Of a stretch of DNA of 64,000 nucleotides, positions 3,670 to 62,223 are shown piece after piece (position 1 is the stretch's first letter; each line of letters begins with the position of its first letter). The notes under the pieces are model-generated. The model was not told the DNA's origin and did not search any database. It saw nothing but the letters and a program-made list of their open reading frames with translations. Source of the DNA: Brachyhypopomus gauderio (taxonomy: Eukaryota > Chordata > Actinopteri > Gymnotiformes > Hypopomidae). The stretch spans positions 4,723,713 to 4,787,712 of the forward strand of contig NC_135223.1 of assembly GCF_052324685.1 (NCBI RefSeq), in the 5' to 3' direction. The position numbers and the translations under genes were made by a program.

Positions 3670-4335
3670 CAGGTGCATTGCAGTAAATTAGGATATCATC
3701 AAAACGTTTTATTTCAGTAATTCAATACAAAAAGTGAAATGCAATATATAGATTCATCACAGAGTGATCTATTTCAAGTGTATTTCTGTTAATGTTGATG
3801 ATTATGGCTTGCAGCCAATGAAAACCCCAAATCATTATCCCAGAAAATTAGAATATTATATAAGACCATCCTGAAATGCACTTAATACTTGGTCAGGGCT
3901 CCTTTTGCACAAATTACCACATCAGTCCAGCGTGGCATAGAGGCAATCAGCCTGTGGCCCTGCTGAGGTGTTATGGAAGCCCAGGTTGCTTTGATAGCAT
4001 CCTTCAGCTCGTCTCCATTGTTGGGTCTGGTGTCTCATCTTCCTGTTGACAATATCCCATATATTCTCCATGGGGTTTAGGTCAGGTGACTTTGCTGGCC
4101 AATCAAGCACAGCTATACTGTGGTTATTAAACCAGGTATTGGTATTTTTGGCAGTGTGGGCAAGTCCTGCTGGAAAATGAAATTTCCATCTCCAAAAAGC
4201 TTGTTGGCAGAGGGTAGCAGGAAGGGCTCTAAGTTCCTGGTAGACAGCTGCACTGACTCTATTGTGTTGAGTCTGGAGGAAGTGATGCGGCGAAAAAAGA
4301 TGAGCCCATGCAAATGTTATGCAAATGACATCCAA
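3670..4335 (-). mobile_element. Truncated Tc1-like transposon
   Basis: A terminal repeat starting caggtgcattgcag follows a TA dinucleotide (3668-3669). The minus strand encodes the C-terminal third of a Tc1/mariner transposase, including the PAKSPDLNPMENIWD region that carries the last catalytic acidic residue. The reading frame shifts once near 4140: the upstream piece, including FQQD, is in another frame. The N-terminal DNA-binding half and the second terminal repeat are missing, so this is a dead 5'-truncated copy. Confidence 0.85.
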
Positions 4336-5358
4336 AACTATGTAGCTGTTCAGATAGAAGGTAGCTACTGTTCGTGTGAACCACCAGTTCCATTTTCAAA
4401 TGCTCCAGATTAGTATGGAAGTTAAACCTGTTCCATACTCCATACTGTTCCCACCTGCATTATCAGGGTTCCCTGTCCTTTTACGATGCAGCCCTGCTAA
4501 AATTTAAGAATTCGGATCAATGCAACAATGCCTGGAGAAACGTTTCAGAGATTGTTGTTGTCTAGTAGGTTTAGAAAAGTACTAATATACCAATATACTA
4601 GAAAAGTTAGCCTTTGTTAGTTTATGCTAGCACAAATGAGAGCCTTTTACAAACTTTGACCACACAGGTCACATGTACATAGCTGAGGTTGGGAGCAGAA
4701 GTTTGGGAATTAAAATACTAAACTACTATTACATGTCGCTACAAACAGTTGATCTTTCTTACTACAGTTACACACTCATGCTCTTTCATTTCAAATGAAG
4801 TTTTGTAGACCAGTGCAATCATGGAAAACCAGCACGTGTGTGAGTTGTAATAATGTTCCAAACTGTTTCTCAGTCACCACTGTCTTCAGATTTCACAGGT
4901 CCTGGTAACATCAAAGGACCAGTGAATTGTAACGTCGTATGTTAATGTTGGATTCAGTAGGTTGCTCGCACCCTAGATCACAAGGTCAGAAGTTAAACTA
5001 CATAAATTAACACAATCAGACACTCCTTGCTCTGATTGGCCGCTTTCCTTTGGGAGAGGTTGATTCTTGTGAATGGTATGCAGAGGATTAGGTGGATCAA
5101 ATCACGTTTTTAAAAATGCACTAGTAATGTAGTTCCTGCCTTTTTCATGGTGATTGTAACATATCATAAACTCTTTAAATAACTCAAGCTACAGCAGACA
5201 GTTACGCAAACTCATACTAATCCTGGGGCTCGTGGGTCGTGTCCCGCGCCCGGCCTTCTCCCGCTGTTCACAGTTGCACTGTTGAGTCCAGAGGTGGCGT
5301 TTCCGACGTGTAAAGGGCACCCTAAAAAAAGACCAGCAGTGTGTTCCACCTGCTGTAG
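4336..5358. other. Region before first recognised agl exon
   Basis: No exon was recognised. The exon carrying the canonical agl N-terminus is either here, unrecognised, or absent (see exon 1). CpG-rich sequence lies at 5220-5300. Confidence 0.4.
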
Positions 5359-5419
5359 ATCCAGAACGTCTTCCTGAAGGACATGGACATGGAGAGGACT
5401 CTGTTTCGCCTGGAGCAAG
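5359..5419 (+). CDS. agl: agl exon 1 (first recognised coding exon)
   Basis: Ends LFRLEQ + G, matching the conserved N-terminal motif. An acceptor-like gctgtag precedes 5359, which would allow eight more in-frame residues from an upstream exon. The first in-frame ATGs are at 5383 and 5389. The true start is uncertain. Confidence 0.75.
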
Positions 5420-6064
5420 GTACGTCCAGGAAAGACGTCTGGTTTATTAGGATGTTGTTATTCAGTGCATTTGACCCTGGGATGCACAGTAGATATTACT
5501 ACAACACAGAGTTTAATTATGCTGTTGTTGGCATGTCTGTTGTTGGCATGTCTGGCATGTCAGTGAGACCACTGATACACACAGTGGTCTCACTGTCTTT
5601 TATTTTGCATGACCTGAGTGTATCGTAGAAAAGCCAGAACTCTCTTTTTATTGAGCTGTTTGGGTTTTGTGCCAGGTCTAACTGGGCAGTGCAGTCAACC
5701 ACAGCCCAGTGTCGATTGCGTGTGTCATGGGCAGGGCGGACATGTAAAGGGTGATGCCGGGTTGAGAACATGAGGGAATGCTCGAGAATTATAGTGCACA
5801 AAACGTGAGCTTTTGACCAGAGGGGCCCAAGTTACAGTTTATATACATATAATTCCAGGTATATGTATAAGATTGCAGGAAGTGCAGGTAAGTGTCTACG
5901 TATGTGTAAACCTCTCAACTGAGCTACAACGAGCCTTGATTGGGTGAATTAAACTCCTGTCAGTTGCCTGACTTGGGATCAGTTGATGAAGCACTTTGCT
6001 TGCACAGCTGATGAAGGACCTGTGTCCGAATCGTCCAGTTTCTCTAGTTTTTCCCAATAACTAT

Positions 6065-6108
<44 letters not shown>

Positions 6109-9100
6109 GTTAAGGTTTCGAGCTCCAGTTTCGTCTGGGGCCCACCCTGCAGGGCAAGAGCGTGCGTGTGTTCACTAACTACCCGTCACCTGGGACGCCG
6201 TTCGCCAGCCAGGAGTTCCGAGCTCTGGAGTGGATGGTCCCCGCGGGCGGGCGGGACGACTCCGACACGTACTGCAGGCTGGACCTGGATGTGGCGGGCT
6301 CCTACCGATACTACTTTGAGTGCGGGTGAGAGTGCTGTGGTCCCTCCGCGCTAACACCTGCGCCCACAATTCTTCTGCGGTCTGGAACGGGCGTGCGAAT
6401 CGTGTTTACCTGCCGTGACTTTGCTGTCAGGGTCGAGGGGAGGGCCGGCGGGGGCTGCATCATGGTGGACCCCGTGCTGCACGTGGGCCATGAGGGCAAG
6501 ATACTGAGTTTGGACAGCGTCCGCGTTCAGACCCACCTCGCCAAGTGCCTGGGTCCCCTGGACGAATGGTTAGACCGACTGAGGGTAGCCAAGGAAACCG
6601 GTGAGAGTCTGAATGCATGTTATTAGTGGTTAACTGATAATGTTGTTTCAGGATGAAGATGATGATGAAGTTCTAGAGTGTGCGTCCTGCAGTTATCAGT
6701 AATGCAGTCTAGCAAGACACTGTAAGACTTGCATTGCTGACATCACTGTGCTGTTATTATGGTGCTCAGAATCAGTTTGCGGAAGGTTCACGTATTCAAT
6801 ACTGTGACAAAGCTTGTCAGGGTCGTCCTGTAAATATGTCACTTCCTGTGACCTCGTGCTTGCTGTGTGATCGTAGTGTTAATTCGTGCCTAGCTTAAGC
6901 CTATGCATGAGCAATAGCTCGGAGCACGTGGGCACACGAATGTGACTGTGAAGCAACACAAATGGCTGTAGAGAAGTTCTGAAGGATCTGATCTCCACAC
7001 GCAGGCTACAGTATGATCCACCTGACACCCGTACAGAAACTTGGCCGGTCTGGATCCTGCCGCTCCATCGCTGACCAGCTGGAGCTGAACCCCGAGTTTT
7101 CCCCGTCTGGGAGGAGCTACACCTGGACGGACGTAGGGAACTTGACAGAGAAGATCAGGAAGGAATGGAGAATGATCTGCATCACTGACCTGGTGTACGA
7201 CCACACAGGTGTGCGGCTCTCCATCAGCAGTCTAGAACACAGAAGCCCATTTGGATCTTCTAGGGCAGAACACTTTCACACTTGTTGATTGCACAAGCAT
7301 TCACATATTAATCCAAACATACATCTTCAAAATAATCTAATGCAGGCCATGCCACTTTATCATAATATTTTACTCCATAGCACACTGTGAAAGGTAGCAA
7401 TATTACAGCAGTTTACTACCGTTGTCCTCGTGCCGATCTCCTCCAGTGAACCCTTGACCTTTTACAGCGCCCGGGCTGAGTTGCGTGTCCGCTGTTTAGC
7501 ACACAAAGCTCAGAGCTTAAGCTGCTCTGGCCGCGAGGAGCGAGGGAGGTGCAGCTGTCCTGGCTGCGTCACACTCCATGACACTCGCGTTTCATCCGAG
7601 GGTTCACCGCTGCAGTTCGTGATCGCCGAGAGGCAACGACTCGCCGCACGTTACTCGCCGAGCCGTCCGACTGTCGGAGAGGCCAGCCGGGCGGCGAGCG
7701 GCCACGAGTCTCGTCTGTGTGACGACGCCGTGCTCTTTAGCTGCTTCCCTGACATTGCACAGTTCTAAAAGTGGAGGTCGGTGTTATGTGTGGCGCGACA
7801 GTGTTTCAGTCTGTGCTCTCTCGGTGCACTGAGAGGTTTTCAACACTCTGCCGTGGTAGAAACTGCATTTATTTTTATGGATAAGGGACTCGACTCATAA
7901 CATTGGCAGTTTGATGGTGCAACTATGTTGACCGGTGCCATTAGGTTGAATAATGTGATTAATCTGACCACAGGTAAATGGTAAAGTATCATCAAACTTA
8001 TGAGGAAGTCCTTGATAACACCCAGCCTCTAAATGAATATGCAAACAGAGTTGAACCAGAAGCCTCGTTTCAGAAATAGCACGAGCGCCAGGGAGAGCAT
8101 CAGACGTGTGCCAGGACACACCACTTTGAAGCCCTTAATGTTCATATGAATATTCATAAAAACCATCAAATACATCTTAATGACTGAATTTCAATGCACT
8201 TAGGAATGTGCACCCTCACCAGTTTTGATTACAGGTTGTATCGGAACATTTGCATTCGAAATCAGCAGTTTTTAACAGGAGTGAGTTGACCTTTAAAGCA
8301 GACGTGGTCCAAGAAACCTGGTTTCACTGATGTCGACTCACTACATACTGGGTTCAGTTCTCACTACATACTGGGTTCAGTTCTCATGTCCCTTAACACG
8401 GCCTTCATTATGTCATCAGTGCTGAAGGCAAGCACTGTGAAAGCCACCATGTTCACCATGTCCACCATGTCCACCATGTCCTCTGACCTGTCTACTGAGC
8501 ATGCATCGCCAGTCCAGCAAAAGGAATGAGCGTTGTGGTTACCAGTCACACTATGTGTCACCGTAACAGTAACACCGTATCTGTTCATAATCTCATTTAT
8601 ACTCTGGCTATTTTCTATCAAATGAATATGAAAAATACTACAAAATGATATTATGCACAAGCTAATCACATAATGTGTTTCCAACTCCCACACTGTTCTT
8701 ACATTCATACATTAGTATCAGATCACACTTCTAAGCAGGAAAACATAAACATTTTCAATTAGCCAAAGATTCTACTTGATTTTGAAAGTGTGGTAACGCC
8801 CTGCCGTTTGAATATGAACAACACATTCACAACATATAGTGTTACCACGCCATATGTTAACATTTAAGAATATCTTAGAAGTCTGTACCGTCTAAATCAG
8901 GTTGGCTTTCTCCATCTGGGCTCAGTGTGCTTACTGTGTCTCGCTAGCGGCTAGCAGCGAGTGGCTGAACCTCCACCCGGAGTGTGGCTACAACCTGGCC
9001 AACTCCCCCCACCTGAAGCCGGCCTGGCTGCTGGACCGAGCCCTGTGGCACCTGGGCCGCGACGTGGCCGATGGAAAACATGCGGAGGCGGGCCTGCCGG

Positions 9101-12100
9101 CCCTCGTCACGCACGAGGAGCAGCTCCACGTGAGTTTGGGCTTTTCACGCCCTGCTCCACAACAGCTGGAACTGTCACACAGTTCACAATGAATCCATCC
9201 GGAATCTGGTTGACAGCCAATATTGCAAAGCTCGGCTTAAATGCAAACCCTGAAGTGGGGAATGCACAAAGACAAGGACAGATTTAATTGATATATTAGT
9301 ATTTGAATAGTGTATTTATGTTCCGCTCGATAGAATCAGATTATCGCATTCAGAATGGACCAGAATGGATCAGAATCGATGGATCATTACACACTTATTC
9401 CAAGCAGCATTAGCCTCAATGTAGAGACCCATGTGTGAACCATTAAGAAGTAACGTTGCCATGGAGAAGTAAGAGACGGTTAGTAAATACAAAGTTGTTT
9501 TGAAGGCCCTCCCATCATAAGGACACTGGTCTGGAGTCCCAACAGGGAACAGCTGTATGATGTTTCCTGTTCTCCCTGACCTGTCCGTGCCAGCCCAAAG
9601 CTTCGAGGAACTGTGAAGGCTCTTATGAGAAGCATCAGCTGTTTTTAGAAAACTGAACTCAGCAGTATCGTCCAGTTATTTGTCATTCCTACTGGTCTAG
9701 AGCTGGGAACTATTTGTTTAGAAAAGTCTTGGAGTTCACTGTGATTTGAATGCTCACTGAGTCACATTTAGAGTTTTATCCAACCATATAATGTCTGCGT
9801 GAGTAGGAGTCCTAGAAGATCTTGTTTGTATTCTAAGAGTTTTAACGTTTTTATAGCGTTTAATTTCAGACATATCAACATTGACACTGACCAAGCGAAG
9901 TTTAAGAGAGCTGCCTTGGGAAAAGCTCGACTGCTGCTGTAGTGCTTTACGGAATAAACACAAGTGGCACGCGACTGTCTCAGGATCAGTCTCCATGGTC
10001 CTTGCTGGTGTGGCCTCTGTCTCCAGACCCTACGCAGGCTGCTGTGGCAGGACCTTTTTCCTCGGCTGAAACTGTGGGAGTTTCTCCAGGTGGACGTGCA
10101 CAAAGCCGTGGAGCGGTTTGAGGAGGCGCTGCAGGACGGTGAGCAGGTCCCCGCCCGTCCATGTCGTGACACCAGCGACCCATCGATCTGGGCTGACACT
10201 CGACATGCGTGCTGTCGTGCGGTGGTGATGGTGTGGCACAGGTGCAAAGCCCCCTGGGTCGAAGACGGCCGGGTTGCGTAAGCTGAAGATCATACAGGAC
10301 CCTCAGTACCAGCGCTTCGGGAACACCGTGGACATGAAGATGGCGCTGGAGATGTTTGGCAGGAAGGCGTGAGTTCTTTACCACAACACATGGCAGTTCC
10401 TTCAGGCTTGGATGGCCAATGTGTCCAGAGTTCCACATTGGTATGTCGCCTCCTAGTGGCTACAGAGAAGAAAGCTGGAACCAACTTTGTTCTTCAAATG
10501 TGCTCACCATTATTTTTGTCTAACCAAGAAATCCTTGTCATTTTCACTGTATTTATTTGTGTTTATACTAATTTGCCCTTTTATGTTCTATGAATCAGTA
10601 TTGGGAAAGAACACAGTGTTGGTGTTTTGGGGAGCTACCAGTTTACAATGTTACACTGTTGCAAATCCTGAGAATATGGTTACGTTTATGTGATTACATT
10701 CGACAGTAGCTAAACATGAACACTGACTTTTATCAGAGGCATTTTTGTAATATTTAACAGGAATGGCCCTGCAGCAATCCAAGCGTGCTGTGATTGGTTT
10801 AAGAAAGCCCTGGAGGAACTGAACCTAAAGTGCTATGAGGAAATGTGCAAACATCACGAGCAGGTCCGTCTCAAGTTGACTCATGTGTTCCCAGTCCTTC
10901 CCAGAATCCTCTACTGCCCATGTGCATTTCAGCCCTACGGACATATACTGGTTTATCCTATTCAGGCCGTAAACTGCATCGTGGACGTCGTGCGTTATGA
11001 GCGTCTTGCGGTGAATGGCCCCCGGCTTGGACCAATCACAAGAACGTGCCCCCTAGTGGCCAGGCGAGCACTGTGCAACGCTTCACACACATGCTTGTTA
11101 AGCTCCTTGGTGAGTTGTCTTGGGGTTTCATGTTGGTCCTCTTTTCCAACACAGATACTTCACCTTCCCCTTTGAGGACATGGCCATGGAGAAGGAACTG
11201 GAGCTTCTCCACAGGTCTGAAGACGCGTGTCGCCTCCTGGCCCACAGTGGATGGGTGATTGGAGCCGATCCGCTCCAGGACGTCGCAGTACCAGGTGGGA
11301 CGCTACGCACGCAACACGGACCTCCACTCCCACTGCTGAGAACTATCAACAGAGCAAAGAAGGCATTTAAAAAACTTATAAAGACAAGGACAAAAACCTT
11401 TATTACTTTATTGGTTGTTAAACCTCCAGTGCTTTCTTCATTCATTAATCCCCTTATCCCCTAATCTCCTCATCCCCTCACCCCCTTGTCCCCTAACCCC
11501 CTCATCCCCTCACCCCCTTGTCCCCTAACCCCCTCGTTCCCTCATCCCCTTGTCCCCTAACCCCCTCATCCCCTCACCCCCTTGTCCCCTAACCCCCTCA
11601 TCCCCTCACCCTCTCGTCCCCTAATCCCCTCGTTCCCTAATCCCCTCACCCCCTTGTCCCCTAATCCCCTCATCCCCTCACCCCCTTGTCCCCTAATCCC
11701 CTCATCCCCTCGTTCCCTAACCCCCTCATCCCCTCACCCCCTTGTCCCCTAACCCCCTCGTTCCCTCATCCCCTCACCCCCTTGTCCCCTAATCCCCTCA
11801 TCCCCTTGTCCCCTAACCCCCTCATCCCCTCACCCCCTTGTCCCCTAACCCCCTCATCCCCTCACCCCCTTGTCCCCTAACCCCCTCATCCCCTCACCCC
11901 CTTGTCCCCTAACCCCCTCATCCCCTCACCCCCTTGTCCCCTAACCCCCTCATCCCCTCACCCCCTTGTCCCCTAATCCCCTCATCCCCTTGTCCCCTAA
12001 GCCCCTCATCCCCTCACCCCCTTGTCCCCTAACCCCCTCATCCCCTCACCCCCTTGTCCCCTAACCCCCTCATCCCCTCATCCCCTCACCCCCTCGTCCC

Positions 12101-15100
12101 CTAATCCCCTCGTTCCCTAACCCCCTCATCCCCTCACCCCCTTGTCCCCTAATCCCCTCATCCCCTCACCCCCTTGTCCCCTAATCCCCTCATCCCCTCG
12201 TTCCCTAATCCCCTCATCCCCTCACCCCCTTGTCCCCTAACCCCCTCATCCCCTCACCCCCTTGTCCCCTAACACCCTCATCCCCTCACCCCCTTGTCCC
12301 CTAACCCCCTCGTTCCCTCATCCCCTCGTCCCCTAATTCCCTCGTTCCCCGTCCACAGGCTCTAACGTGTACCTGCGGAGGGAGCTGATTTGTTGCAGCG
12401 ACAGTGTAAGGCTGCGCTATGGCAACAAGCCCGAGGACTGTCCGTACCTCTGGGCGCACATGAAGAAATACACGGAGATCACGGTCAAGCACTTCCACGG
12501 CGTGCGACTGGACAGACGTGACTCCGCCCCTCTGCACGTGGCTGAGGTACGCTGGGATAACCCGAGACACGCTCATGACATAAACTAAAGGATAAGATCT
12601 TGTTGAGGAGTTATATCTTAAAAGATATTGAATACTGCGGGACATATTTTCGATATTGCGATTGGAAACTCTGCTGTCATGACGTGTGGCATTGGAACCT
12701 TTGTCAATAATTTGTGTACTAAATGGACACGTGCTCATTAGTATCCTTGACCAGGCCGTTGATCCCATCACTGCAGTGCGTCTCACGTGTTCACGCCGCC
12801 TCTCTACTAATGAGCACGTGTCCACACGCCACTCCGGTCCTGCTGCTGACCGTCAGCCCCTTTCTCTCGTGCCAACTTGTTAAGCCTCCCTCGTATGTTC
12901 TATTTCTGTCTCCCTTTTTCTCGTGTGTGTGTATATATGTGTGTGTGTGTGTGTGTAACTGCAGTACATGCTGAGGACTGCGCGGGAACACAGGCCTGAT
13001 CTTTACGTTGTGGCGGATCTGTTCACGGGGAACCAGGATCTGGACAACACCTTCATCACTCGGCTGGGCCTCACCGCCTTCATCCGGGGTAAAGGTCACA
13101 CAGAGGGAGGCAGGATAAGACTCAGGATCCAGACTAGGGCTGCACAATATATTGTTTGTGTATCATTATCGCAATATTTTTTGCGATACTGAAAAAAGTT
13201 TTACTGGATGATCCTGACTAGACCGAGGTAAGATCTTTCAGATAAGAGGGCTACAGGTCATCCAGCATTAACATGAATAAAGCAGCCTGACCTTTGACCC
13301 TGACAGTGGATTACCAACACAAGCCATGTCCCAGTTACAGTATTTAACAGTGTGTTATTTGGTGTGTCATACAGGCCTTTTGTGAGTTCTCTTTTGCACT
13401 TTTGAGTTACGGAATCTTGTGTTCATAGTGAGGGTGGTGTTCATGGTGAGGGTGGTGTTTATTATGAGGGTGGTGTTCATGGTGAGGGTGGTGTTTATTA
13501 TGAGGGTGGTGTTCATGGTGAGGGTGGTGTTTATTATGAGGGTGGTGTTCATGGTGAGGGTGGTTTTCATGGTGAAGGTGATGTTTATAGTGAGAGTGGT
13601 GTTTATGGTGAGGGTGGTGTTTATTATGAGGGTGGTGTTCATGGTGAAGGTGGTGTTTATAGTGAGGGTGGTGTTTATTATGAGGGTGGTGTTCATGGTG
13701 AAGGTGGTGTTTATAGTGAGGGTGGTGTTTATTATGGGGGTGGTGTTCATGGTGAAGGTGGTGTTTATAGTGAGGGTGGTGTTTATTATGGGGGTGGTGT
13801 TCATGGTGAGGGTGGTGTTTATTATGAGGGTGGTGTTCATGGTGAAGGTGGTGTTTATAGTGAGGGTGGTGTTTATTATGGGGGTGGTGTTCATGGTGAG
13901 GGTGGTGTTTATATTGAGGGTGGTGTTCATGGTGAGGGGGGTGTTTATAGTGAGGGTGGTGTTCATGGTGAGGGTGGTGTTTATTATGAGGGTGGTGTTT
14001 ATTATGAGGGTGGTGTTCATGGTGAGGGTGGTGTTTATTATGAGGGTGGTGTTCATGGTGAGGGTGGTGTTTATTATGAGGGTGGTGTTCATGGTGAGGG
14101 TGGTTTTCATGGTGAAGGTGATGTTTATAGTGAGATTGGTGTTCATGGTGAAGGTGGTGTTTATTATGAGAGTGGTGTTCATGATGAGGGTGGTGTTTAT
14201 TATGAGGGTGGTGTTCATGGTGAGGGTGGTTTTCATGGTGAAGGTGATGTTTATAGTGAGATTGGTGTTCATGGTGAAGGTGGTGTTTATTATGAGGGTG
14301 GTGTTCATGGTGAAGGTGGTGTTTATAGTGAGGGTGGTGTTTATTATGGGGGTGGTGTTCATGGTGAGGGTGGTGTTTATAGTGAGGGTGGTGTTCATGG
14401 TGAGGGTGGTGTTTATAGTGAGGGGGCTGTTCATCGCCTCCACAAACCTGCCCGACGTGCTCATAACGTGGAGGGACTGTCGCTGTGTCCCGCAGAGGCG
14501 ATGGGAGCGCGGGACGCTGAAGACGAGGGCCGGCTGGTGTACCGGCTCGGCGGGGAGCCTGTGGGCTCCTTAGTGCAGCCCAGCCGCAGGCCTCTGCTTC
14601 CCGGTGTAGCGCCCTCCGTCTTCCTGGACGCCACCCACAACGACGAGAGCCCCATCCAGGTCGGTGAAGAAGGAGGTGGTGTACGTTTCCAGTCCTGTAG
14701 CGCCACCTGTCTGCAGGGCTAAGTTACAGCCTGCTTGGGTCTCATATTGAACACAGTACTGATCACCTTGGTTTACTTTGTTAACTTTACCAGGACAGCT
14801 GTGTGACCTAACGTAACGAATAATATATACACTGTAGTGTTTTTAATATTGGATTAATATCAGGCTGGCCTGAACAATCTGAATTTACATGGTAATTCAT
14901 AATAATTCAAGTACAATAAATCTCTGATCCAACTGTAATGAATTTCATCACCCCAGGCATTAAAGCAACTGTTGTTAAAGGAGCTTCACCCAAAGCTACA
15001 ACCCTTTATAGGGAGAAGTTTTGCCAGGAGACCCCAGGGGTCTCCATCCTCTCTAACAGCTGGCACTGTGGACTGGGCCAAGCCTTTACTTTACAGGCAA

Positions 15101-18100
15101 AATGGAAGGTGTAGCATAAGTGAATTGTAGCTGGTTCAGGGTACAACAACATGAAATGCCACCACGCAGACACACAGACATGGACACATGGGGTGAGGCA
15201 GACATGTGAAGACGCAGACACGCGGAGACGCAGACACGCAGACGTGCAGACACACGGAGACGCAGACATGTAGATGTGCAGACACACGGAGACGCAGACA
15301 CACAGAGACGCAGAGGGTGTTGATGTTAAGGTGCCGATTAAAGCAGCTGTCAGGAGAAGAAAAGAGCTTAGGACATACTCCAACATAAGTTCACACAGCA
15401 CTGTCCTGCCTCCAGGGTCACGGGATAGGTTATATTATATGGATATAATTGGAAGTCCAATATCAAACATGCCTTACATTACAGTAAATTATGAAAATTT
15501 GGGGGTATTTAAAAATCCTGTAAAATGGTATTTGGTCCAACCCTGAGTGATTATGCTAACACTTCATCAAAAGCATATATTTATTTAAGTTACATTAGCT
15601 AAAGCCTTTGGATAACATATTAGTCTTAAAAACGTAAAACCATTGAGTTTGTGTGTGAGCAAGCAGTCTGTTTTTCGTCTTAAAGGTCCGCTCCGTGTAC
15701 GACTGCCTCCCTAGCTCTGCCATCGTTTCTATGGCCTGCTGTGCCACAGGCAGTACTAGAGGATACGACGAGCTGGTCCCTCACAAGGTATGAAGTCACA
15801 CTTCCTGTTAGCTCAGCTCTCAGAGGTCACCTGGGCGTTCAGGCACACTGGTTTCCTAACAAATATTAGAAAAATAAAAACAAAAATAACTATCTTTACA
15901 TTTTAGAAGCATTAGCATATTTTAACATACATTAACATATTTTAACATGCATTAACATACTTTAGATAAATATGTTGTAGACATTTCACCACCACTGTAG
16001 AAAACCACTCTCAACACGATGATCTGTAATGGCACCGTCTTGTTCAGATGTTGCTCTTTCAGCGTGAGTGTTTGACCTCAGGTTTCGGTGGTGAAGGAGG
16101 AGAGGTTGTATCCCAAGTGGAGCGACGGGGAGCAGCCCTCCTGTCCCTGGGAGGTGAACCTCCGGACGGGCATTACGGCAGGGAAGCTGGCTCTCAACAG
16201 ACTGCACCAAGAGCTCGCAGAGAAGGGCTTCACCCAGGTCTATGTAGACCAGCTAGATGAAGACACCGTAGCAGTGACCAGACACTGTCCAAGCACACAC
16301 CAGTCCGTGGTGACTGTGTCTCGCACCGCCTTCAAACACCCCAAGAAACACCGCTACAGGGGGAGAGTTGCCCCCATGTTCATACCAGGTTTGCACTCAA
16401 ACCAAAATTCTAATTCACGCAAACTCACCTGAGCTCGTTTATTCAGACCGGCGTGCTTAGGAATGCAGATATGCACGATGAGCAGTGACACCTCAGACCT
16501 GCGTCACGTGACCTGAGTCACGTGACCTGCATCATGTGCGCTCCGCACCCTTCTTGCCATGCAGGTCAGATAGAGGAGGTGATCTTGGAGGCACGCACAG
16601 TCAAGACAGCGGCCAGCCCGTACGTGAAAGACGAGAGGAACATTAACGGCCTGCCCGACTACACCGTCGAGCTCCGAGAACACCTCGAGGTAAATTGAGC
16701 TCCGAGAACACCTCCAGGTACCTCTCCAGCTAACTGGAGCTCCAGGAACACCTCCAGGTACCTCCAGGTACCTCTCCAGCTAACTGGAGCTCCGAGAACA
16801 CCTCCAGGTACCTCTCCAGCTAACTGGAGCTCCGAGAACACCTCCAGGTAACCGGAGCCTGGGTGCTGCTCTCTGTCAAGATGTTACCCAGGAGGAACGA
16901 TGTCTCATAATTACACACTAACACTCCGAACTCAGATCTTCTCATCTGGACCTTTGTCTGGTCATTTTGTTTATGTCATGCTGTGATGTTTGACAATTTG
17001 GACCTAGTGACTGTTCACCCAGTATCTAGAAAGTTCCATGCAAAAGACCCTTCTCCTAAGATGTCAGATGATGCATTAGGCATTATTTCTCACTGAGCAT
17101 ACAGGGAGTTACCCTAGAGACTGCCCTCTGGTGGAGTGTGGTGTGCATACACACGAGAGTGTGGGTTCGTCTCATGGGACATGTTAACTCATTGATTCTT
17201 TAATTGACACAGCCGTTTGCTGTGCTTTCTTTCAGCTTAAGGACAGCAACGTTGTGAAACAGGGAAATGTGGTAGTAAAAGGAAGCAGTGAGTTCGTCCA
17301 GGAGATCGTGTTCGACCAGCTTACTCCAGGCACTGTGATTGCCTTCAGGTAAACGCACACACACACATATGCCAGGTGTGCTGCATTAGGTTTGGGGCCA
17401 CTCTGCTGGAAACTAGATCACCACGACCAGCTTTTCCAGGCTTTGTGATTGAACCATGAATATCATGGAGACCTTAATGAACCTGTAACTCTGTTCAGAG
17501 GTTTCCTATGCACACTCCGACCATAATTACTCATTAGTTTAAACTGATTCATTTGAATACTTCTGCCCAATGATTCATTTGAATACTTCTGCCCAATGAT
17601 TCATTTGAATACTTCTGCCCAATGATTCATTTGAATACTTCTGCCCAATGATTCATTTGAATACTTCTGCCAAATGAATCATTGAATACTTCTGCCACAT
17701 GATGAATGGTGTACATACTCACATATTTGAAGTGAACTGAAGTGAATGTGAGTCTGTAACAGGGTGAGCCTGGCGCCCCAGTCTCGGGATGCGGTGGGCT
17801 TCCTGCGTACACAGCTGTCCCAGTTCCAGCGCCAGTACCAATCAGGCAGCTCTACAGACCCACACCTCCCTGCCATCCTGAAGGTTCCCCTAGATACGTA
17901 AGCACTCTGCATTGCTCATCATTCTCTCCACGACCACGCTGTCCTCTACACCATAGTCTCACGTCAGCTGTTCTCTACAACGTGGTCTCACGTCAGCTGT
18001 TCTGTGCTCTGTGGTCTCACGTCAGCTGTTCTGTACTCTCTAGTCTCACATCAGCTGTTCTCTATGCTGAAGTCTCATGTTAAGGCTGTTCTCTTCACTG

Positions 18101-21100
18101 TAGTCTCATGTCAAAGCTGTTCTCTATGCGGTAGTCTCACGTTAGCTGTTCTTTAATCTGTAGTCTCATGTCAAAGCTGTTCTCTATGCGGTAGTCTCAC
18201 GTTAGCTGTTCTTTATTCTGTAGTCTCATGTCAAAGCTGTTCTCTATGCGGTAGTCTCACGTTAGCTGTTCTTTATTCTGTAGTCTCATGTCAAAGCTGT
18301 TCTCTATGCGGTAGTCTCACGTTAGCTGTTCTTTATTCTGTAGTCTCATGTCAAAGCTGTTCTCTATGCGGTAGTCTCACGTTAGCTGTTCTCTATTCTG
18401 TAGTCTCATGTCAAAGCTGTTCTCTACGCTGTAGTCTCACGTTAGCTGTTCTTTATTCTGTAGTCTCATGTTAAAGCTGTTCTCTACGCTGTAGTGTCAC
18501 GTTAACTGTTCTTTATTCTGTAGTCTCATGTTAAAGCTGTTCTCTACGTTGTAGTGTCACGTTAACTGTTCTTTATTCTGTAGTCTCATGTCAAAGCTGT
18601 TCTCTATGCGGTAGTCTCACGCAGGGGTGGAAAGTAACTATTACATTTACTCACATTACTGTAATTGAGTACTTTTTATGAGTAATTTGTTTATTCTGAG
18701 TAGTTTTTGAAATATGTAATTTTTACTTTTACTTGAGTACATTTTGACCCAAGTAGTTTTACTTCACTACATTTGAACGCCCTCACATTACTGAGTAAAA
18801 AAATATTGATGGTGAAAAATTAAATGCGGGCAGAAATTTAAACTTCTGAGTCCCAGAACTGAAGGCCAATTGCGTGACCTTGCCTTGCGCGCCCTTTCTA
18901 TTGTCTCATAATCAGGTCGTAATCTGGTGCACTTTTTTTTCCAAAAGGATGAGATTGTCAGGTTCTGTGGGATCCTGTGGACATTTTATTGTGAAAAGTG
19001 GAATCCTGTGGGCACTGTATTTTGAATAGTTGGATCCTGTGAGCGTTTTAAATAGTGGAATCCTGCGCACATTTTGTTTTACTTTGAGATGTGGGATCCT
19101 GTGGTCATTTTATATTTTATTTTGAGTTGTGGCAGCCTGTGGGCATTTTATTGTGAATAGTGGGGTCCGGTGGGCACTGTATTTTGAATAGTTGGATCCT
19201 GTGAGCACTTACTTTTAAATTGTGGGATCCTATGAGCATTTTTTTATTTTTGATGTGGGATCCTGTGGGCATTTTATTGTGAGTAGTGGAATCCTGTTGC
19301 ATTTAATTTGATTTGTGGCATCTTGTGGGCACTTAATTTTGTTTATTTTGTTTTTTGAATAATTTGTAAATTAAATTTCTTTATTCTTATCATAGTGTTG
19401 TCCGTTGGACAATAGGACTGAAAATTGTTTGCACTTTATGGTACAGGTTGTAACTGTCCTTGTGCTGTGAGGAAGGTGAGCTGAGCCCAGCTGATCTTTT
19501 TGCAAGTGTGGATGTGCACTTAAATACGCTTTGTAATCGATTAAAACAACTTGTGCTGAATTTGGTTCATGATTCATCCATGCATTAAATAACTGAAAGT
19601 AACTAAGTAACCTTTACTCAAATTACATTTTAAATGAAGTAATTTTGTACTTTTACTCGAGTAAATTTTGAGATGGGTAATTTTACTTTTACTCTGAGTA
19701 GATTTTAGTCAAAGTAATGATACTTTTACTCAATTACAATTTTTCAGTACTCTTTCCACCTCTGGTCTCACGTTAGCTGTTCTTTATTCTGTAGTCTCAT
19801 GTCAAAGCTGTTCTCTATGCTGTAGTCTCACGTTAGCTGTTCTTTATTCTGTAGTCTCATGTCAAAGCTGTCGTTGGCTGACCTGAACATGTTGCTGTTC
19901 CGCTGTGACGCTGAGGAGCAGGAAGATGGTGGAGGGTGCTACAACATCCCCTCCTGGACAGCTCTAAACTACTGTGGCCTTCAAGGTACAAATCACACCC
20001 TCAGAACTGCACATCCTCATTGTTCAGCCACTACTGTTTGACTTCACTCACTGTGAATTGAATTTCCTTGCGTGGTCTGTTAGAATGGCGTTGCCTTCTC
20101 TGAATGCAGGGTTTGTGTCGGTGCTGTCAGACATTCGGCCCAGCAACGACCTAGGCCACCCCTTCTGTGACAACCTGAGGCAAGGAGATTGGATGCTTGA
20201 TTACATTAGCTCTCGTCTCTTAAATAAAGGTGGAGCTTTGCAGGAGGTAAGACACGAACATCTGTTTTTTTTTTTACTTCTTCAGAAATTATATATTGCA
20301 TATTTATTTTTTACATTTCTGTTTTATCTCACAGGTGGGTCAGTGGTTCCACAGCATATTTACCTACCTTAAGCACATCCCACGGTACCTTGTGCCATGC
20401 TACTTCGATGCCGTCATCGTTGGGGCGTACGCTACGGCCGTGGATGCCGTGTTTAACAAGATGTCAAGGTCTGGTCTCTTGGACTCGATATTAAGTTCAG
20501 CTGCACATACAATAACACTGTCTGTTTTGTTCCACGTACTGCACCCATGTCGTTGTAAGCAGCTAGCGTTCTAAGTCTGGAGTGTTAGGAACGCAGTGGT
20601 AGATGCTAAAGGATATTGCGCACACATGCACGTTCTGACTGGTTCTGGAAATGGCAGCTTTGTATGGCGCGGCACGACCGCAACGAAGCAGCTGGCGCTG
20701 GCCTCGGTGCAGATGTGCGGCGTGGGGCGGGTTCCCGCTCTTCCCGCACTCTCGCCCGCCCTGCAGGACGTCCCGATTCGCCTCAACCCTGCCTCCCAGC
20801 TAGAAGAACAGTGCTGTGTGTCTCTGGCCGCAGGTAACCCCCCCCCCCGGCCAGACATTTACCACAGGAGATGGCAGAAAGACTGATGGGTCTGATTGTT
20901 CTATTTGAACTGGCTAATTAGTTGATCCAGATGTCACAATCCAGATCTCATAAGCATGAATATTAATAAATTCAGTACTTCTTCCTTTTAAAACTGAATT
21001 TAGAACCTTGTTTTGTGTAGATATGGCATGAGTTGTTTTGAAACCTGTTTTGAAACTACCACAGGAATAAAAAATACCTTTACTTTCTCCCCTGGTTGTG

Positions 21101-24100
21101 TGAACATTTAAATGTTTAATGTGAATTGAGCGCCTTCGTGAGAGTAATTGAAAGGTTTAATTGTATGATCCCAGTGTAGCTGGTCTGCATATGTGCACAC
21201 CGCGCGTGAAAAAGCACGGGCATCTTCTCGATGTCATGGAGCTCAGTTCTGGAACGTTCTCCTTCCTCACAGGGCTGCCTCACTTCTCGTGGGGGGCATT
21301 CCGCTGCTGGGGCCGTGACACGTTTATAGCCCTGCGCGGACTCATGCTCGTCACGGGGAGACACCTGGAAGCCAGGTGCGCTTCAGCCCAGCACTCACCG
21401 CATGCCAACGGAAACCTTTTACCTAAACGTGTTAACGTAACGACTCCTGAATGATGGTTATTATGGGCTAGTGCAAACTAAATGATGGCGAGGAGCTCCC
21501 TTTAGCCTCATTAACCTTATAAAACCTTCAGAACAAGGTCATGCTAACATCCATTCAGGTGAGCTAGCTACACGTTCGCGAGGTTTAGCATGTAGGGTTT
21601 CCTCTCTGCAGGAACATCATCCTGGCCTTCGCGGGCACCTTGAGGCACGGTCTGATCCCCAACCTACTGGGACGGGGCGTGGAGACGCGCTACAACTGCC
21701 GGGATGCGGTGTGGTGGTGGCTCCAGTGCATCCAGGACTACTGTGTCATGGTGCCCCATGGCACCGACATCCTGGCGTGCCCCGTGGCCCGCATGTACCC
21801 TACAGATGACTCGGACCCTCGGCTTGCTGGCACTGTGGTGAGCGGTGAACGTTTTTGACACCAGCAGGTCTGCTTGGGTCTGGCTTGGATGCCCGACTCA
21901 TTGTGGTTCAGCAGTGTTCAGCAGCACCGGACTTTGCTGCAGAAGGCTAGCTGTGATCTGGACGGTTGACGTTCGCTCTCTGCACTTGCGGTGCCTGTTT
22001 TCCAGGAACAGCCTCTGCACGATGTTGTCCAGGAGGCCATGCAGTGCCACGCACGAGGGATTGAGTTCCGAGAGAGGAACGCTGGACCCCAGATCGACAG
22101 TAACATGCGAGATGAAGGTTGGTTCCACTTTTCTGACGTTCTTCATGCTGTGGTCTGTGAGCATCCCATCCTTAATGCTACTGTCTCTGTGGGTCGTCTG
22201 TCAGGGTTCAATGTTGAGGCTAAAGTCAACCTGGACACGGGTTTCGTGTACGGGGGCAATCGCTTCAACTGTGGCACCTGGATGAACAAAATGGGTGAGA
22301 GTGACAAAGCCGGCAATCGTGGGACACCGGCCACGCCCAGGTACCACGGTCACCGTGGATCTTTTTCATTAGTCGAGCTCTTCTTCCTCATTGCTGGGAT
22401 CCAGATGGGCCTGTCAGGTGTCCTGGCAACACGGATGGTTTGATTTCTAGGGACGGTTCTGCAGTGGAGATCGTGGGTCTTTGCAAGTCTGCCGTACGTT
22501 GGTTGGTGCAAATGAACAAGAGCGGCCACTTCCCCTACTCCTCCGTCAGTGTCCGTGGAGACGGTATATCTTACAGTAAACACATACCGCTAAATATAAG
22601 ACTGGTGTGTGAGGGCCAACTGCTGAGTCATCGTGGGAATCATGGATATAAACGTTTTTGTCCAGGCATGACCACTCTGTGCTTTTGTTTGCCAGAAGAA
22701 TCATTGACCTATGAGGAGTGGAACCAGAGGATCCAGGACAACTTTGAAAAGACATTCTACGTGTCACGTGACCCGAAGGACCCGCACGAGCACCTGCACC
22801 TGGTGCACAAGACGGGCATTTACAAAGACAGCCATGGTGCCTCCAGCCCCTGGTGTGACTATCAGCTCAGGGCCAACTTCACCATCGCCATGGTGGTGGT
22901 AAGCCCTGACTCAGGAGGCCTGCTTGTAGCAGAATCTCAGATGAAGGTCCCCACATACAGAAGATGTGGAGTCCACACGGGTCGGGTTCTGTGTTAAAGT
23001 GCTTTTTTTTCTCCAGGCACCTGAAATGTTTACTGTTGAAAAGGCTTGGGGAGCTTTGGAGATGGTGGAGAAGAAGCTGATTGGTCCTTTGGGAATAAAG
23101 ACCTTGGACCCAGAGTGAGTGGCACCAGCATTTCTGAATATTTCTGCTGCTACGTTCACTGTGCAAGTGGAGACGTTTTTCCACTGTATAAGACCTGTGG
23201 TCTTAAGATGGGTCTACAACATGCAGGCGACATGTGAACATTGTCACAAACAACAAAAGCAGATCAGAAGCTCTAAAGCTGCTATCTTGAAGCATGGCCC
23301 ATTACACACTCAAAGTCCATAAGTGTTTAATGTTAAATGTTTTCCCAAAACATTTAACGATCTGCTATCATCATCTGCAATAGCATCATCATGATAATTG
23401 CAATGTAAACCAACCTTCACCCATAAACAGGCAAGATTTATTACACTTTACATTCAATAGCTGGAATAAGAATCCATATGCCAAAATAATGGTGATGAGG
23501 CATGAAATATGAAGGGTATCTTGACCAGTTTCTGGCTACTGGTTAATTATTCTGCACCAACAATTTGAATGGACCCAGTCGTTAAAGTTGGGGAGGGGTA
23601 GCGTGTTTCCAGTGCCAGATCATGTGAAATCATGGGTGCCTTTTCCTACAGTCATGGTGTGTATAGCCAGTAATGGTGAATTTAGTGATTCCATAGTGTT
23701 GTTTCAAATCCAGATACTGCAATCGAATCCAGCACGGTTAGTCTCAGCAAGCCTAGACTCTTTTTCCACTCCCATTGTTCAAATATCATAAATTTCAGTA
23801 TTTGATTCATGTTAATGATTTGACACTTGACAGTGACATGGTTTATTGCGGTGTCTATGACAACGCCCTGGACAACAACAACTTCAACCTGGCCAAGGGC
23901 TTCAACTACCACCAAGGACCGGTACGTTGTCTCGCTGTCATTACAGTCAGTCGATTTTGCTTGTATAACCCAGAGCAAACATGCTGGAGGCACAACACAG
24001 CTTTTCACTTTGTAGTATAGAAACAAATATATCACAAAACGATTTGTTTAGAAGCTGGACATTCTGGCTTTGTAAGGCGTAGCGCAAATAAAATTAGTTC

Positions 24101-24592
24101 AATACATAGCCTAATCCAGATAAAAATGAATGAGCCAGAAAAAGTGGTGAGTCTATAAATTTTTTTCCTGGGGTTGTAGGAGACAGACACGTTCATGAGG
24201 CATTTCAAACATCTTCTTTTTCAGGAATGGCTTTGGCCAGTCGCCTACTACCTGAGAGCCAAACTTTACTTTGCCAAGCAAATGGGTCAAGAGGTGTATG
24301 ACCAGCAGGTGTGTCTGGTGAAGAATGTCCTCTCCAGACATCGCGTCTACTTAGAAAGGTACAAATAGCAACACACACAGAGCTCAGACCCACAGGTGAA
24401 TTCTTATAATGCAAGCCTCACCATTTCTCTTTTTATGTTGGGGGCGGGGCATGCAGATCTCCCTGGAAAGGCTTACCTGAGCTGACCAATGAAAACGGAC
24501 AATATTGCCCATACAGTTGTGAGACTCAGGCGACGTCGATCGCCACTGTCCTGGAAGTGCTATATGATCTCCGTGAGGCTGAAGGCCTCTAG
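5359..24592 (+). CDS. agl: Glycogen debranching enzyme (amylo-alpha-1,6-glucosidase, 4-alpha-glucanotransferase), 32 coding exons
   Basis: Exons (join): 5359-5419, 6115-6325, 6431-6600, 7005-7208, 8948-9129, 10027-10138, 10242-10368, 10761-10863, 10966-11063, 11155-11294, 12359-12546, 12965-13088, 14496-14659, 15686-15787, 16082-16388, 16565-16689, 17236-17348, 17763-17897, 19855-19985, 20110-20246, 20335-20468, 20658-20833, 21273-21375, 21612-21837, 22006-22117, 22205-22340, 22451-22563, 22696-22898, 23017-23114, 23834-23921, 24225-24358, 24457-24592. Every junction keeps phase and they total 4,593 nt. From the ATG at 5383 the protein is 1,522 residues (human 1,532). The family is cytosolic and has two activities: an N-terminal GH13-type 4-alpha-glucanotransferase and a C-terminal GH133 alpha-1,6-glucosidase. 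Domain order and length are normal. The oddity is catalytic: D205 for Asn in region I, D542 for the acid/base Glu, N614 for the HD-motif Asp, and N1248 for the GH133 Asp. The nucleophile D513 and E1500 in SCETQ remain. Splice sites are canonical except the GC donor after exon 9. Numbering counts from 5383. Confidence 0.95.
6115..6325 (+). CDS. agl: agl exon 2
   Basis: Starts after a long CT tract and ttaag acceptor. Encodes [14 protein letters not shown], the N-terminal beta-sandwich region. Donor cgg|gtgaga. Confidence 0.95.
6431..6600 (+). CDS. agl: agl exon 3
   Basis: Encodes MVDPVLHVG and [12 protein letters not shown]. Donor ccg|gtgaga. The preceding intron is only 105 bp. Confidence 0.95.
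7005..7208 (+). CDS. agl: agl exon 4 (GH13 region I)
   Basis: Encodes [11 protein letters not shown] and [13 protein letters not shown]13 region I normally reads D-x-V-x-N-H; here codon 7199-7201 (GAC) puts Asp in place of Asn (residue 205). Confidence 0.95.
8948..9129 (+). CDS. agl: agl exon 5
   Basis: Encodes [16 protein letters not shown], a near-invariant AGL segment. Acceptor gctag, donor cac|gtgagt. Confidence 0.95.
10027..10138 (+). CDS. agl: agl exon 6
   Basis: Encodes [20 protein letters not shown]. Acceptor ctccag, donor acg|gtgagc. Confidence 0.95.
10242..10368 (+). CDS. agl: agl exon 7
   Basis: Encodes [17 protein letters not shown], matching the conserved IIQDPEYRRFG block. 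Donor ggc|gtgagt. Confidence 0.95.
10761..10863 (+). CDS. agl: agl exon 8
   Basis: Encodes [20 protein letters not shown]. Acceptor aacag, donor cag|gtccgt. Confidence 0.95.
10966..11063 (+). CDS. agl: agl exon 9, followed by a GC donor
   Basis: Encodes [15 protein letters not shown] and GPRLGPITR. The frame into exon 10 (AR|YFTFPF) is kept only if the donor is cag|gcgagc, giving a GC-AG intron of 91 bp. Confidence 0.93.
11155..11294 (+). CDS. agl: agl exon 10
   Basis: Encodes YFTFPFED and [11 protein letters not shown]. Donor cag|gtggga. Confidence 0.95.
11450..12350. repeat. C-rich 32-bp minisatellite filling agl intron 10
   Basis: About 28 copies of a 32-bp unit made of octamer-like pieces (cccctcat, cccctcac, cccttgtc, ccctaac). 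The last copies run into the exon 11 acceptor and supply its pyrimidine tract. The complementary strand has regularly spaced runs of four to five G. Confidence 0.95.
12359..12546 (+). CDS. agl: agl exon 11 (GH13 nucleophile)
   Basis: Encodes [20 protein letters not shown] and GVRLD. The Asp of GVRLD (residue 513, codon 12511-12513) aligns with the transferase nucleophile and is kept. The acceptor sits directly after the 32-bp C-rich array. Confidence 0.96.
12547..12964. other. agl intron 11
   Basis: Unique sequence ending in a TG microsatellite (about 12923-12955) before the exon 12 acceptor ctgcag. Confidence 0.6.
12965..13088 (+). CDS. agl: agl exon 12 (GH13 acid/base position)
   Basis: Encodes [10 protein letters not shown]. 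The human sequence, as recalled, is LYVVAELFTG, with the Glu as general acid/base. Codon 13016-13018 is GAT, so residue 542 is Asp. Confidence 0.96.
13137..13198. mobile_element. Decayed DNA-transposon fragment
   Basis: The string gggctgcacaatatattg followed by cgcaatatttttgcgat resembles the ends of abundant fish hAT-type elements. No partner end or target duplication was found. Confidence 0.35.
13425..14432. repeat. G-rich 18/36-bp minisatellite in agl intron 12
   Basis: Alternating 18-bp units of the type gagggtggtgttcatggt and gagggtggtgtttattat, about 55 units. The unit length is divisible by 3, so it gives open frames of 365 (minus) and 384 (plus) codons that are not genes. It ends about 60 bp before the exon 13 acceptor. 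Confidence 0.95.
14496..14659 (+). CDS. agl: agl exon 13 (GH13 region IV)
   Basis: Encodes [14 protein letters not shown] and DATHNDESP. The family motif is THDNE, whose Asp is the third transferase catalytic residue. Here the codons are AAC then GAC (14639-14644), giving H-N-D. Confidence 0.96.
14660..15685. other. agl intron 13
   Basis: No exon. A degenerate purine-rich tandem array of about 17-18 bp (cagacacacggagacg) runs from about 15170 to 15315. Confidence 0.6.
15686..15787 (+). CDS. agl: agl exon 14
   Basis: Encodes [20 protein letters not shown]. Acceptor taaag, donor aag|gtatga. Confidence 0.96.
16082..16388 (+). CDS. agl: agl exon 15
   Basis: The longest exon (307 nt). Encodes [20 protein letters not shown] and [12 protein letters not shown]. 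Confidence 0.96.
16503..16526. promoter_or_regulatory. Two perfect GTCACGTGAC palindromes in agl intron 15
   Basis: Sites at 16503-16512 and 16517-16526 match the E-box/CLEAR consensus bound by TFEB/TFE3/USF-type bHLH-Zip factors. They arise from a 14-bp tandem duplication. A role in agl control is only inferred. Confidence 0.4.
16565..16689 (+). CDS. agl: agl exon 16
   Basis: Encodes [12 protein letters not shown] and ends VELREHLE at gag|gtaaat. The last 20 bases of the exon and its donor are repeated in the intron immediately downstream. Confidence 0.94.
16690..16853. repeat. 40-bp minisatellite copied from the agl exon 16 donor
   Basis: About four copies of a unit beginning gagctccgagaacacctc and continuing caggtacctctccagct. 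The first part copies the end of exon 16, including its donor. Confidence 0.92.
17236..17348 (+). CDS. agl: agl exon 17
   Basis: Acceptor tttcag, donor cag|gtaaac. Encodes [13 protein letters not shown]. Confidence 0.94.
17536..17690. repeat. 27-bp minisatellite in agl intron 17
   Basis: Five to six copies of a unit with gattcatttgaatacttctg. Confidence 0.9.
17763..17897 (+). CDS. agl: agl exon 18
   Basis: Acceptor taacag, donor tac|gtaagc. Encodes [13 protein letters not shown] and ILKVPLD. Confidence 0.94.
17925..18621. repeat. 60-bp minisatellite copied from the agl exon 19 acceptor (left part)
   Basis: The 60-bp unit is made of two related 30-bp halves. One half contains tctgtagTCTCATGTCAA, the acceptor and first bases of exon 19. 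About 11 copies, then interrupted by a hAT element. Confidence 0.94.
18622..19764. mobile_element. Non-autonomous hAT element, 1,143 bp
   Basis: Ends are CAGGGGTGGAAAG and, inverted, CAGAGGTGGAAAG. It is flanked by a perfect 8-bp target duplication GTCTCACG (18614-18621 and 19765-19772), diagnostic of hAT. No transposase frame. The interior (about 18955-19345) is an imperfect array of roughly 35-bp units around tgggatcctgtgggcatttt. Confidence 0.95.
19765..19854. repeat. 60-bp exon-19 minisatellite (right part)
   Basis: About one and a half further copies after the hAT element, leading straight into the real exon 19. Confidence 0.92.
19855..19985 (+). CDS. agl: agl exon 19
   Basis: Starts at tctgtag|TCTCATGTC. 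This acceptor gives [12 protein letters not shown], aligned with the family TLAELN block, and is the only one that keeps phase. Encodes [12 protein letters not shown]. The same junction is repeated many times upstream. Confidence 0.93.
20110..20246 (+). CDS. agl: agl exon 20
   Basis: Encodes [20 protein letters not shown] and [10 protein letters not shown]. Confidence 0.96.
20335..20468 (+). CDS. agl: agl exon 21
   Basis: Encodes [19 protein letters not shown]. Acceptor cacag, donor aag|gtctgg. Confidence 0.96.
20658..20833 (+). CDS. agl: agl exon 22
   Basis: Acceptor tggcag. Encodes ASVQMCGVG and [11 protein letters not shown]. Donor cag|gtaacc just before a C-run. Confidence 0.94.
20834..21272. 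other. agl intron 22
   Basis: Unique AT-rich sequence. Starts with a C-run after the donor. Confidence 0.5.
21273..21375 (+). CDS. agl: agl exon 23 (GH133 core)
   Basis: Encodes LPHFSWG and [14 protein letters not shown], the hallmark GH133 motif, intact. Confidence 0.96.
21612..21837 (+). CDS. agl: agl exon 24 (GH133 core)
   Basis: Encodes [20 protein letters not shown] and [18 protein letters not shown], intact. Confidence 0.96.
22006..22117 (+). CDS. agl: agl exon 25
   Basis: Encodes [13 protein letters not shown]. Acceptor ttccag, donor aag|gttggt. Confidence 0.95.
22205..22340 (+). CDS. agl: agl exon 26 (GH133 catalytic Asp position)
   Basis: Encodes [19 protein letters not shown]. 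The family motif is TWMDKMGES, whose Asp is the alpha-1,6-glucosidase general acid. Codon 22285-22287 is AAC (residue N1248). Confidence 0.96.
22451..22563 (+). CDS. agl: agl exon 27
   Basis: Encodes [18 protein letters not shown]. Acceptor ttctag, donor acg|gtatat. Confidence 0.95.
22696..22898 (+). CDS. agl: agl exon 28
   Basis: Encodes [12 protein letters not shown] and [20 protein letters not shown]. Confidence 0.96.
23017..23114 (+). CDS. agl: agl exon 29
   Basis: Encodes [11 protein letters not shown] and [12 protein letters not shown]. Donor cagA|gtgagt. Confidence 0.95.
23115..24224. other. agl introns 29 and 30
   Basis: Apart from exon 30 no exon or repeat family was recognised. 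Confidence 0.5.
23834..23921 (+). CDS. agl: agl exon 30
   Basis: Encodes [14 protein letters not shown] and [11 protein letters not shown]. Confidence 0.96.
24225..24358 (+). CDS. agl: agl exon 31
   Basis: Encodes [16 protein letters not shown] and LVKNVLSRH. Confidence 0.96.
24457..24592 (+). CDS. agl: agl exon 32 with stop
   Basis: Encodes [20 protein letters not shown], then [18 protein letters not shown] and a six-residue tail to TAG. The GH133 base Glu (E1500) is kept, but the Trp of the family motif ETQAWS is Thr (codon 24533-24535). Confidence 0.95.
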
Positions 24593-35287: not shown

Positions 35288-35930
35288 GATTCCAAATAAT
35301 CCCAAAGATGACCCTTCACACTTTTTTTTTTTTTTTTTTTTTTGTGTGGGGTCCAAGAAATAAAAAAAAATAAAAAATTAGGAAAGAAAAAAAATCCCAA
35401 ATCAATTAAACACGTCAAAGAAGGTCCTCAAAATTTAGATCCGCTCCTCATACCAACGAAGCAAACAGTGCCCTCCCCCCCTGGGGGATATCTCTGCCGC
35501 TCCGGAGCTAGCCAACACTGTATTACGTCTAATCAGTGCGCTTCTGCCCAGCTGGATCTCTGGCCAGACTGACGGGCGCTAGGCTAAGTCCTATCCCGCC
35601 TGGGCAATACCGCAGTATCCCCACCGTATAGACTTCCTGTAGGCGATATCTCACTATATCCCTATCGTATAACAGAGATCATCCGGCGGGCGGACACTGG
35701 CGGATATTTAACACTTAAACTAAGAAATTAAACTGAAAATTCCCACTTACTGCGGTTTTCGTTTGATCGGGCGGAGAACACCACCGGAGACTGGCGGTGA
35801 CATCACTCCCTGGATAGGTACTTTCCCTTTGCTCGTGGGGTTCCCACTTTGCCCAGCCCAGCCAGGGATCTCATCCCCCGGGGAGCGTCCTCGAAGATCA
35901 GTCACCGCCTTTCCGGGGTGCCTCTCGCCG

Positions 35931-37770: not shown

Positions 37771-53738
<15,968 letters not shown>

Positions 53739-61976: not shown

Positions 61977-62223
61977 TAAATTTCATTTTTACAGTATAGT
62001 ACAGTGCCGAAATCATATTCATAGTAACTTTTTTGTGCAATATTACATTTCTATGAGAAACATTGGTTAAGCCAATTGACATTTAATGGTTACACTAACT
62101 GACTGCAAGCAAACAACAAGCAATTAAAGTTGAATAAAAAGTCATGAAGTTAAATGATGTACAGTTTTATCTCAGTTTATTTCATTTATCACATCATGAT
62201 TTACACTGGTATCACAACTAGTG

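Follow-up and report, generated by a model that had tools for sequence, protein, structure and literature searches.

Glycogen debranching enzyme (AGL) is a textbook two-activity enzyme, and its loss causes glycogen storage disease III (GSD III). Can a gene of this family stay open from start to stop after its catalytic residues have changed, and what would its product then be? The question is raised by the window analyzed here, a 64,000-nucleotide stretch of the Brachyhypopomus gauderio genome (G000:C13:4723713-4787712; the assembly totals 796.5 Mb over 840 contigs), in which a preliminary description had reported an AGL gene with an intact 32-exon frame and an altered glucanotransferase (GT) triad. 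The frame is indeed intact. The aglb-type, glycogen debranching enzyme-like gene occupies positions 5383..24592 on the forward strand, with a coding sequence of 4,566 nt including the stop, and reads through 32 exons from the ATG at 5383 to a termination codon whose last base is 24592, with 1,521 amino acid codons before it. Thirty of its introns are GT-AG and one, intron 9 (11064..11154), is GC-AG. The spliced coding sequence translates to 1,521 residues that match, letter for letter, the NCBI model P0001 (glycogen debranching enzyme-like isoform X2, B. gauderio), a model that may derive from the same assembly as the window and so lends the aglb sequence no independent support. The protein contains the N-terminal, glucanotransferase, central, and glucosidase domains in that order (PF14699, PF14701, PF14702, and PF06202) and scores 1924.4 bits against the NCBIfam equivalog TIGR01531, above the cutoff of 1399.55. 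By sequence, aglb belongs to the glycogen debranching enzyme family by descent.

An in-frame TAG lies at 5356-5358, upstream of the aglb ATG. As read from the sequence, and barring the splicing of a further exon onto this start, the protein has an N terminus 15 residues short of the one encoded by agla, the partner gene described below. Long minisatellites occupy parts of introns 10, 12, and 18 (11450-12343, 13419-14431, and 17954-18621); those of introns 10 and 12 lie on either side of exons 11 and 12, with the intron 12 repeat stopping 64 bases short of exon 13, so that they surround exons with transferase-site changes. Elsewhere in the window, on the reverse strand, we found a transposase fragment (3925-4395; DDE_3, PF13358) and pieces of a pyridoxal-dependent decarboxylase gene (~48382-53838; PF00282 in two pieces), which we guess to be of the aromatic amino acid decarboxylase type. 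Open stretches at ~33613-35377 and 45947-47448 (both reverse strand) and at 62200-64000 (forward strand) resemble, to our eye, retroelement gag (with a zinc knuckle) and reverse transcriptase.

To locate the active sites, positions were fixed by alignment to two solved chains, human 8zeq and the Candida glabrata enzyme (CgGDE), and are given in human numbering unless CgGDE is named. In the conservation counts, human numbering was carried by a proxy, the 1,532-residue cattle protein P0096, which agrees with the human chain at N219, D526, and D1261. The residue letters in the C. glabrata stretches as numbered here agree with those that the structure paper (PMC4837477) gives for its named residues. 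Both alignments agree with the preliminary description on the placement of the three transferase residues, and the constant 13-residue offset that it had given holds at each of them: aglb residues D513 (GAC), D542 (GAT), and N614 (AAC) correspond to human D526, E555, and D627. The codons that it had read at 12511, 13016, and 14639 are likewise as reported. Exon 11 (12359..12546) keeps the nucleophile D526 (12511-12513); exon 12 (12965..13088) carries E555D at the acid/base position (GAT, 13016-13018), in a region of 11 letters; and exon 13 (14496..14659), in region IV (THNDESP), carries D627N (AAC, 14639-14641). We take D627 to be the third catalytic Asp of the transferase, from the general GH13 scheme. 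Of what an active transferase would need, the nucleophile is present, and the acid/base Glu and D627 are absent.

The damage to this site extends beyond what had been described, to N219D, W487C, N527R, C528R, H529D, and N628D. The first lies in exon 4 (7005..7208), in GH13 region I (DLVYDHT; GAC, 7199-7201), an exon that also carries V216L (7190-7192) and Y173R (7061-7063). In exon 11, W487C (12394-12396) replaces a substrate contact (W496 in CgGDE), and the residues next to the nucleophile are changed at 12514-12522 (N527R, C528R, and H529D) and at 12526-12528 (T531A); a compensated frameshift, judged from the codons, was considered for the replacement of DNCH by DRRD. N628D (GAC, 14642-14644) directly follows D627N. 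In CgGDE, transferase activity is reported to be lost in the D535N and E564Q mutants and severely impaired by the counterpart of the GSD III substitution N219D; the main text of that paper names D535 and E564 and does not mention D670 (PMC4837477). The N219D of aglb is the very substitution of the human disease, and E564 corresponds to E555. The D535 equivalent, D526, is kept in aglb. By analogy with these mutants, loss of transferase activity in the aglb paralogue is well supported, although Gln rather than Asp was tested at CgGDE E564 and E555D alone may leave some residual activity.

The preliminary description had treated the transferase alone as affected. In the glucosidase (GC) site, however, the catalytic Asp is also replaced: exon 26 (22205..22340) carries D1261N (AAC, 22285-22287, within a stretch of 10 letters), equivalent to CgGDE D1241. 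The other residues expected of an active glucosidase are present, namely, D1102 in exon 23 (21273..21375; GAC, 21317-21319; CgGDE D1078) and the acid E1502 in exon 32 (24457..24592; GAG, 24479-24481; CgGDE E1492), as is R1147 (CgGDE R1123). Exon 32 further contains W1520T (24533-24535) and the stop. Altogether, three of the six catalytic residues are changed (E555, D627, and D1261). CgGDE D1241A is reported to have no significant debranching activity and unaffected transferase activity (PMC4837477). From such tested C. glabrata equivalents we predict that aglb loses both activities, with the qualification that E555D and D1261N themselves differ from the substitutions tested. Y408, W958, and D1400, glycogen-binding residues for which CgGDE mutation tests exist, have the same letters in aglb, which makes glycogen binding plausible, although three kept letters are expected anyway at such divergence. 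Laboratory and patient alleles (E564Q, D535N, and N219D) affect one active site; in B. gauderio aglb both sites are affected, naturally, and in a duplicate.

To gauge how unusual these changes are, we collected 153 AGL-like proteins, the best-ranked hits of two protein searches. N219, W487, N527, H529, E555, and D627 are kept in all 152 of the others among these best-ranked hits, and neither these six transferase-site changes nor D1261N was found in any of the 152, which sets E555D and D627N apart from ordinary variation. Position 1261 is Asp in 146 of the 152, the rest being two gaps and four proteins with E or P (P0122, P0124, P0125, and P0126), all short models; across the 153 proteins, gaps number two at D1102, two at D1261, and eight at E1502. 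Five fused or aberrant proteins (P0003, P0027, P0035, P0048, and P0055) were dropped before conservation was counted, which left 116 of 121. A set of 114 other proteins shares 391 invariant columns; B. gauderio aglb is changed at 25 of these (20/180 in GT and 2/144 in GC) and the electric eel aglb at 18, relative to a median of 1 over the 116; the next protein after the eel, the Sinocyclocheilus model P0052, has 10. Domain borders (117, 846, and 1045 in human numbers) and site windows were our choice, the transferase-site windows comprising regions I to IV plus ligand contacts from the GH13 scheme and PMC4837477.

An intact second copy exists in the same genome. The eel agla protein gave 43 matches in the assembly (30 of 53 candidates scored), all of them either in the window or at C16:9.69-9.71 Mb. 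The latter locus holds agla (G000:C16:9688560-9711409), which has 33 exons, 32 GT-AG introns, and a stop and encodes 1,534 residues. All six catalytic residues are present, with the motifs GVRLDNCHST, IAELFTG, VTHDNECP, and GTWMDKMGE, and by these residues we regard agla as the intact paralogue, a second gene with Glu and Asp at the sites, for which the preliminary description had proposed a search. Like vertebrate AGL (human 8zeq and B. gauderio agla), aglb is full length, with the four Pfam domains and a TIGR01531 match, and its exon plan is nearly identical to that of agla. It differs from both in the loss of E555, D627, and D1261 and in the six accompanying transferase-site substitutions, and from agla in its GC-AG intron 9 (GT-AG in agla) and in a 307-nt exon 15 (16082..16388), whose length is the sum of two agla exons, 15 and 16 (156 and 151 nt), so that aglb has one intron fewer.

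In an unrooted tree of 52 of the 116 retained proteins, the a and b copies each comprise elopomorph, clupeiform, euteleost, and otophysan fish, which implies that the AGL pair is old; the split between b copies and a copies plus non-teleosts has support of 87/92. The pair fits the teleost genome duplication. Electric eel aglb (P0002) and the aglb of other otophysans lie on the same side of the tree as B. gauderio aglb. Unlike the latter, eel aglb retains all six catalytic residues. Both gymnotiform proteins carry V216L, and both are changed at N224, N459, and F471, to different letters. Four sites that are otherwise invariant are substituted in eel aglb (N224D, N459D, F557V, and H1090Q), and judged from its sequence its activity may also be impaired. 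The aglb gene evolves fast in both gymnotiforms found: B. gauderio and the eel share 93% identity in agla but 79% in aglb (76% in GT and 85% in GC), and the terminal branches are 0.187 (B. gauderio) and 0.125 (eel) for aglb versus 0.043 and 0.042 for agla. No further gymnotiform aglb appeared among the best 120 of 1,059 hits in our first search or among the best 120 of 1,280 hits to the eel GT region, where hits are clusters at 90% identity, each named by one source.

We then asked where the B. gauderio changes fall, counting positions at which B. gauderio departs from a letter shared by the eel and other otophysan aglb. On this branch, 9 of 31 invariant positions are changed in the transferase site, 7 of 151 in the rest of GT, and 2 of 145 in GC; the eel branch gives 1/31, 7/151, and 4/145. 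The excess in the site over the rest of GT is significant (P = 0.0002) and is weaker when adjacent changes (527-531 and 627-628), which may be single events, are merged (5/27 versus 7/151; P = 0.02). Catalytic residues are likewise changed more often (3/6) than other invariant columns (22/385; P = 0.004). In GC the conservation gradient is retained (2/145 at invariant positions versus 14/141 at positions of mid and low conservation; P = 0.0016). Over the whole GT domain, by comparison, 16 of 182 invariant and 29 of 276 variable positions are changed (P = 0.63), and the change rates by conservation class are 8.8, 9.0, 9.7, and 11.6%. For these classes the fair comparisons are eel aglb and both gymnotiform agla proteins, which were kept out of the definition of invariance, the zeros of the comparison fish at invariant positions being there by construction. 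At GT positions that are nearly invariant and lie outside the site, B. gauderio has 12 changes in 133 versus 3 in 133 for the eel; at nearly invariant GC positions it has 7 in 124 versus 4, and its N-terminal and M domains carry changes as well. The flat GT gradient and the 12 changes at nearly invariant GT positions fit, as far as protein comparisons go, a loss of constraint over the whole domain. Given that other invariant positions have not been lost at the rate of the site, however, the counts argue against a wholly unconstrained aglb.

Taken together, aglb is probably either a non-enzymatic relative or a copy early in decay. The best explanation, to which we give slightly better than an even chance, is that it is a teleost AGL duplicate turned pseudoenzyme, possibly still glycogen binding. 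Catalytic residues are lost within an intact 1,521-codon frame, and at the protein level the GC domain and the fully invariant GT positions outside the sites are conserved, even as the whole-GT gradient is flat and nearly invariant GT positions are changed. The serious rival is early decay, in which aglb escaped selection in the gymnotiforms, beginning with the transferase domain, and in B. gauderio is functionless although still free of stops and frameshifts; we consider it distinctly less probable, though far from negligible. It would account for the long aglb terminal branches in both species, for GT changes nearly independent of conservation class, for their reach into the N-terminal, M, and GC domains and into nearly invariant GT positions, and for a frame that begins 15 codons later than that of agla. 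It accords poorly with how seldom fully invariant positions have changed beyond the transferase site, where B. gauderio equals the eel in the rest of GT, and with the intact frame and splice sites. GC3 is also undecayed (0.73, versus 0.446 for the GC content of the gene's own introns and 0.71 for agla GC3), and the 98 polarized B. gauderio-specific missense changes are accompanied by no stops, where about 5 would be expected were all neutral and every base change equally likely (P = 0.007). The preliminary description had left the choice between a pseudoenzyme and very recent inactivation open; loss of the transferase in a paralogue is well supported by the intact agla and the CgGDE mutants, and on the choice itself the counts lean toward a pseudoenzyme.

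Two other readings are less probable. The protein could be a specialized half-enzyme, with a dead transferase and a live glucosidase acting in trans with agla. GT-defective and GC-defective CgGDE mutants, when mixed, are reported to have wild-type potency (PMC4837477), and the well-conserved GC domain, with E1502, D1102, and R1147 in place, points the same way. Despite this trans-complementation we rate the idea lower, as improbable, because of D1261N: the catalytic residue, nearly universal in the sample, is Asn here, and mutation of its CgGDE counterpart (D1241A) leaves no significant debranching activity. Such an enzyme could, however, describe an ancestral stage. We regard as very unlikely that sequencing, assembly, or alignment error has created the pattern, or that the enzyme is altered but fully active. 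P0001 may share the assembly, and E555D alone differs from the substitutions tested; nevertheless, many separate changes are spread over five exons (4, 11, 12, 13, and 26) with clean frame and splice sites, and the positions are anchored to two solved structures, for which reasons misalignment or assembly artifact was set aside as unlikely.

Under the preferred explanation, a pseudoenzyme, aglb would be the b copy of an old teleost AGL pair, a full-length protein dead at both sites, with debranching done by the a copy, agla. GT-domain relaxation would likely have preceded the split from the eel, as suggested by V216L and the shared positions N224, N459, and F471, and the transferase center and glucosidase Asp would likely have been lost afterward, on the B. 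gauderio branch. The duplicate would thus be freed from catalysis and not wholly from folding; the folded b protein might persist, attach to glycogen, and work through occupancy, scaffolding, or regulation. That it is expressed, folds, binds glycogen, and has any function is inferred here. A precedent for a non-catalytic role comes from AGL mutants null for transferase or glucosidase, which are reported to restrain tumor-cell growth still (PMC5908281). More tentatively, and with rather less confidence than in the pseudoenzyme itself, we suggest that a gymnotiform-lineage AGL paralogue without both centers, its fold and glycogen contacts kept, could, while bound to glycogen, regulate agla or phosphorylase or serve as a decoy for one of them, perhaps linked to the energy demand of electric signaling.

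We found no report of an AGL pseudoenzyme paralogue of this kind in the largely open-access literature searched, and nothing on AGL in B. gauderio or in gymnotiform genomics among the records listed; the main text of the electric-fish genome paper (PMC7952227) contains no glycogen, agl, or glycolysis. The gymnotiform pair suggests a graded loss, in which the fast-evolving b copy of the eel keeps its catalytic residues and half are gone from that of B. gauderio. A paralogue that occurs in nature with both centers altered, and with a known disease substitution among its changes, would separate AGL binding and scaffolding from catalysis, and the presence of an intact gene next to a naturally dead copy would open a non-catalytic role of AGL to testing in an animal.
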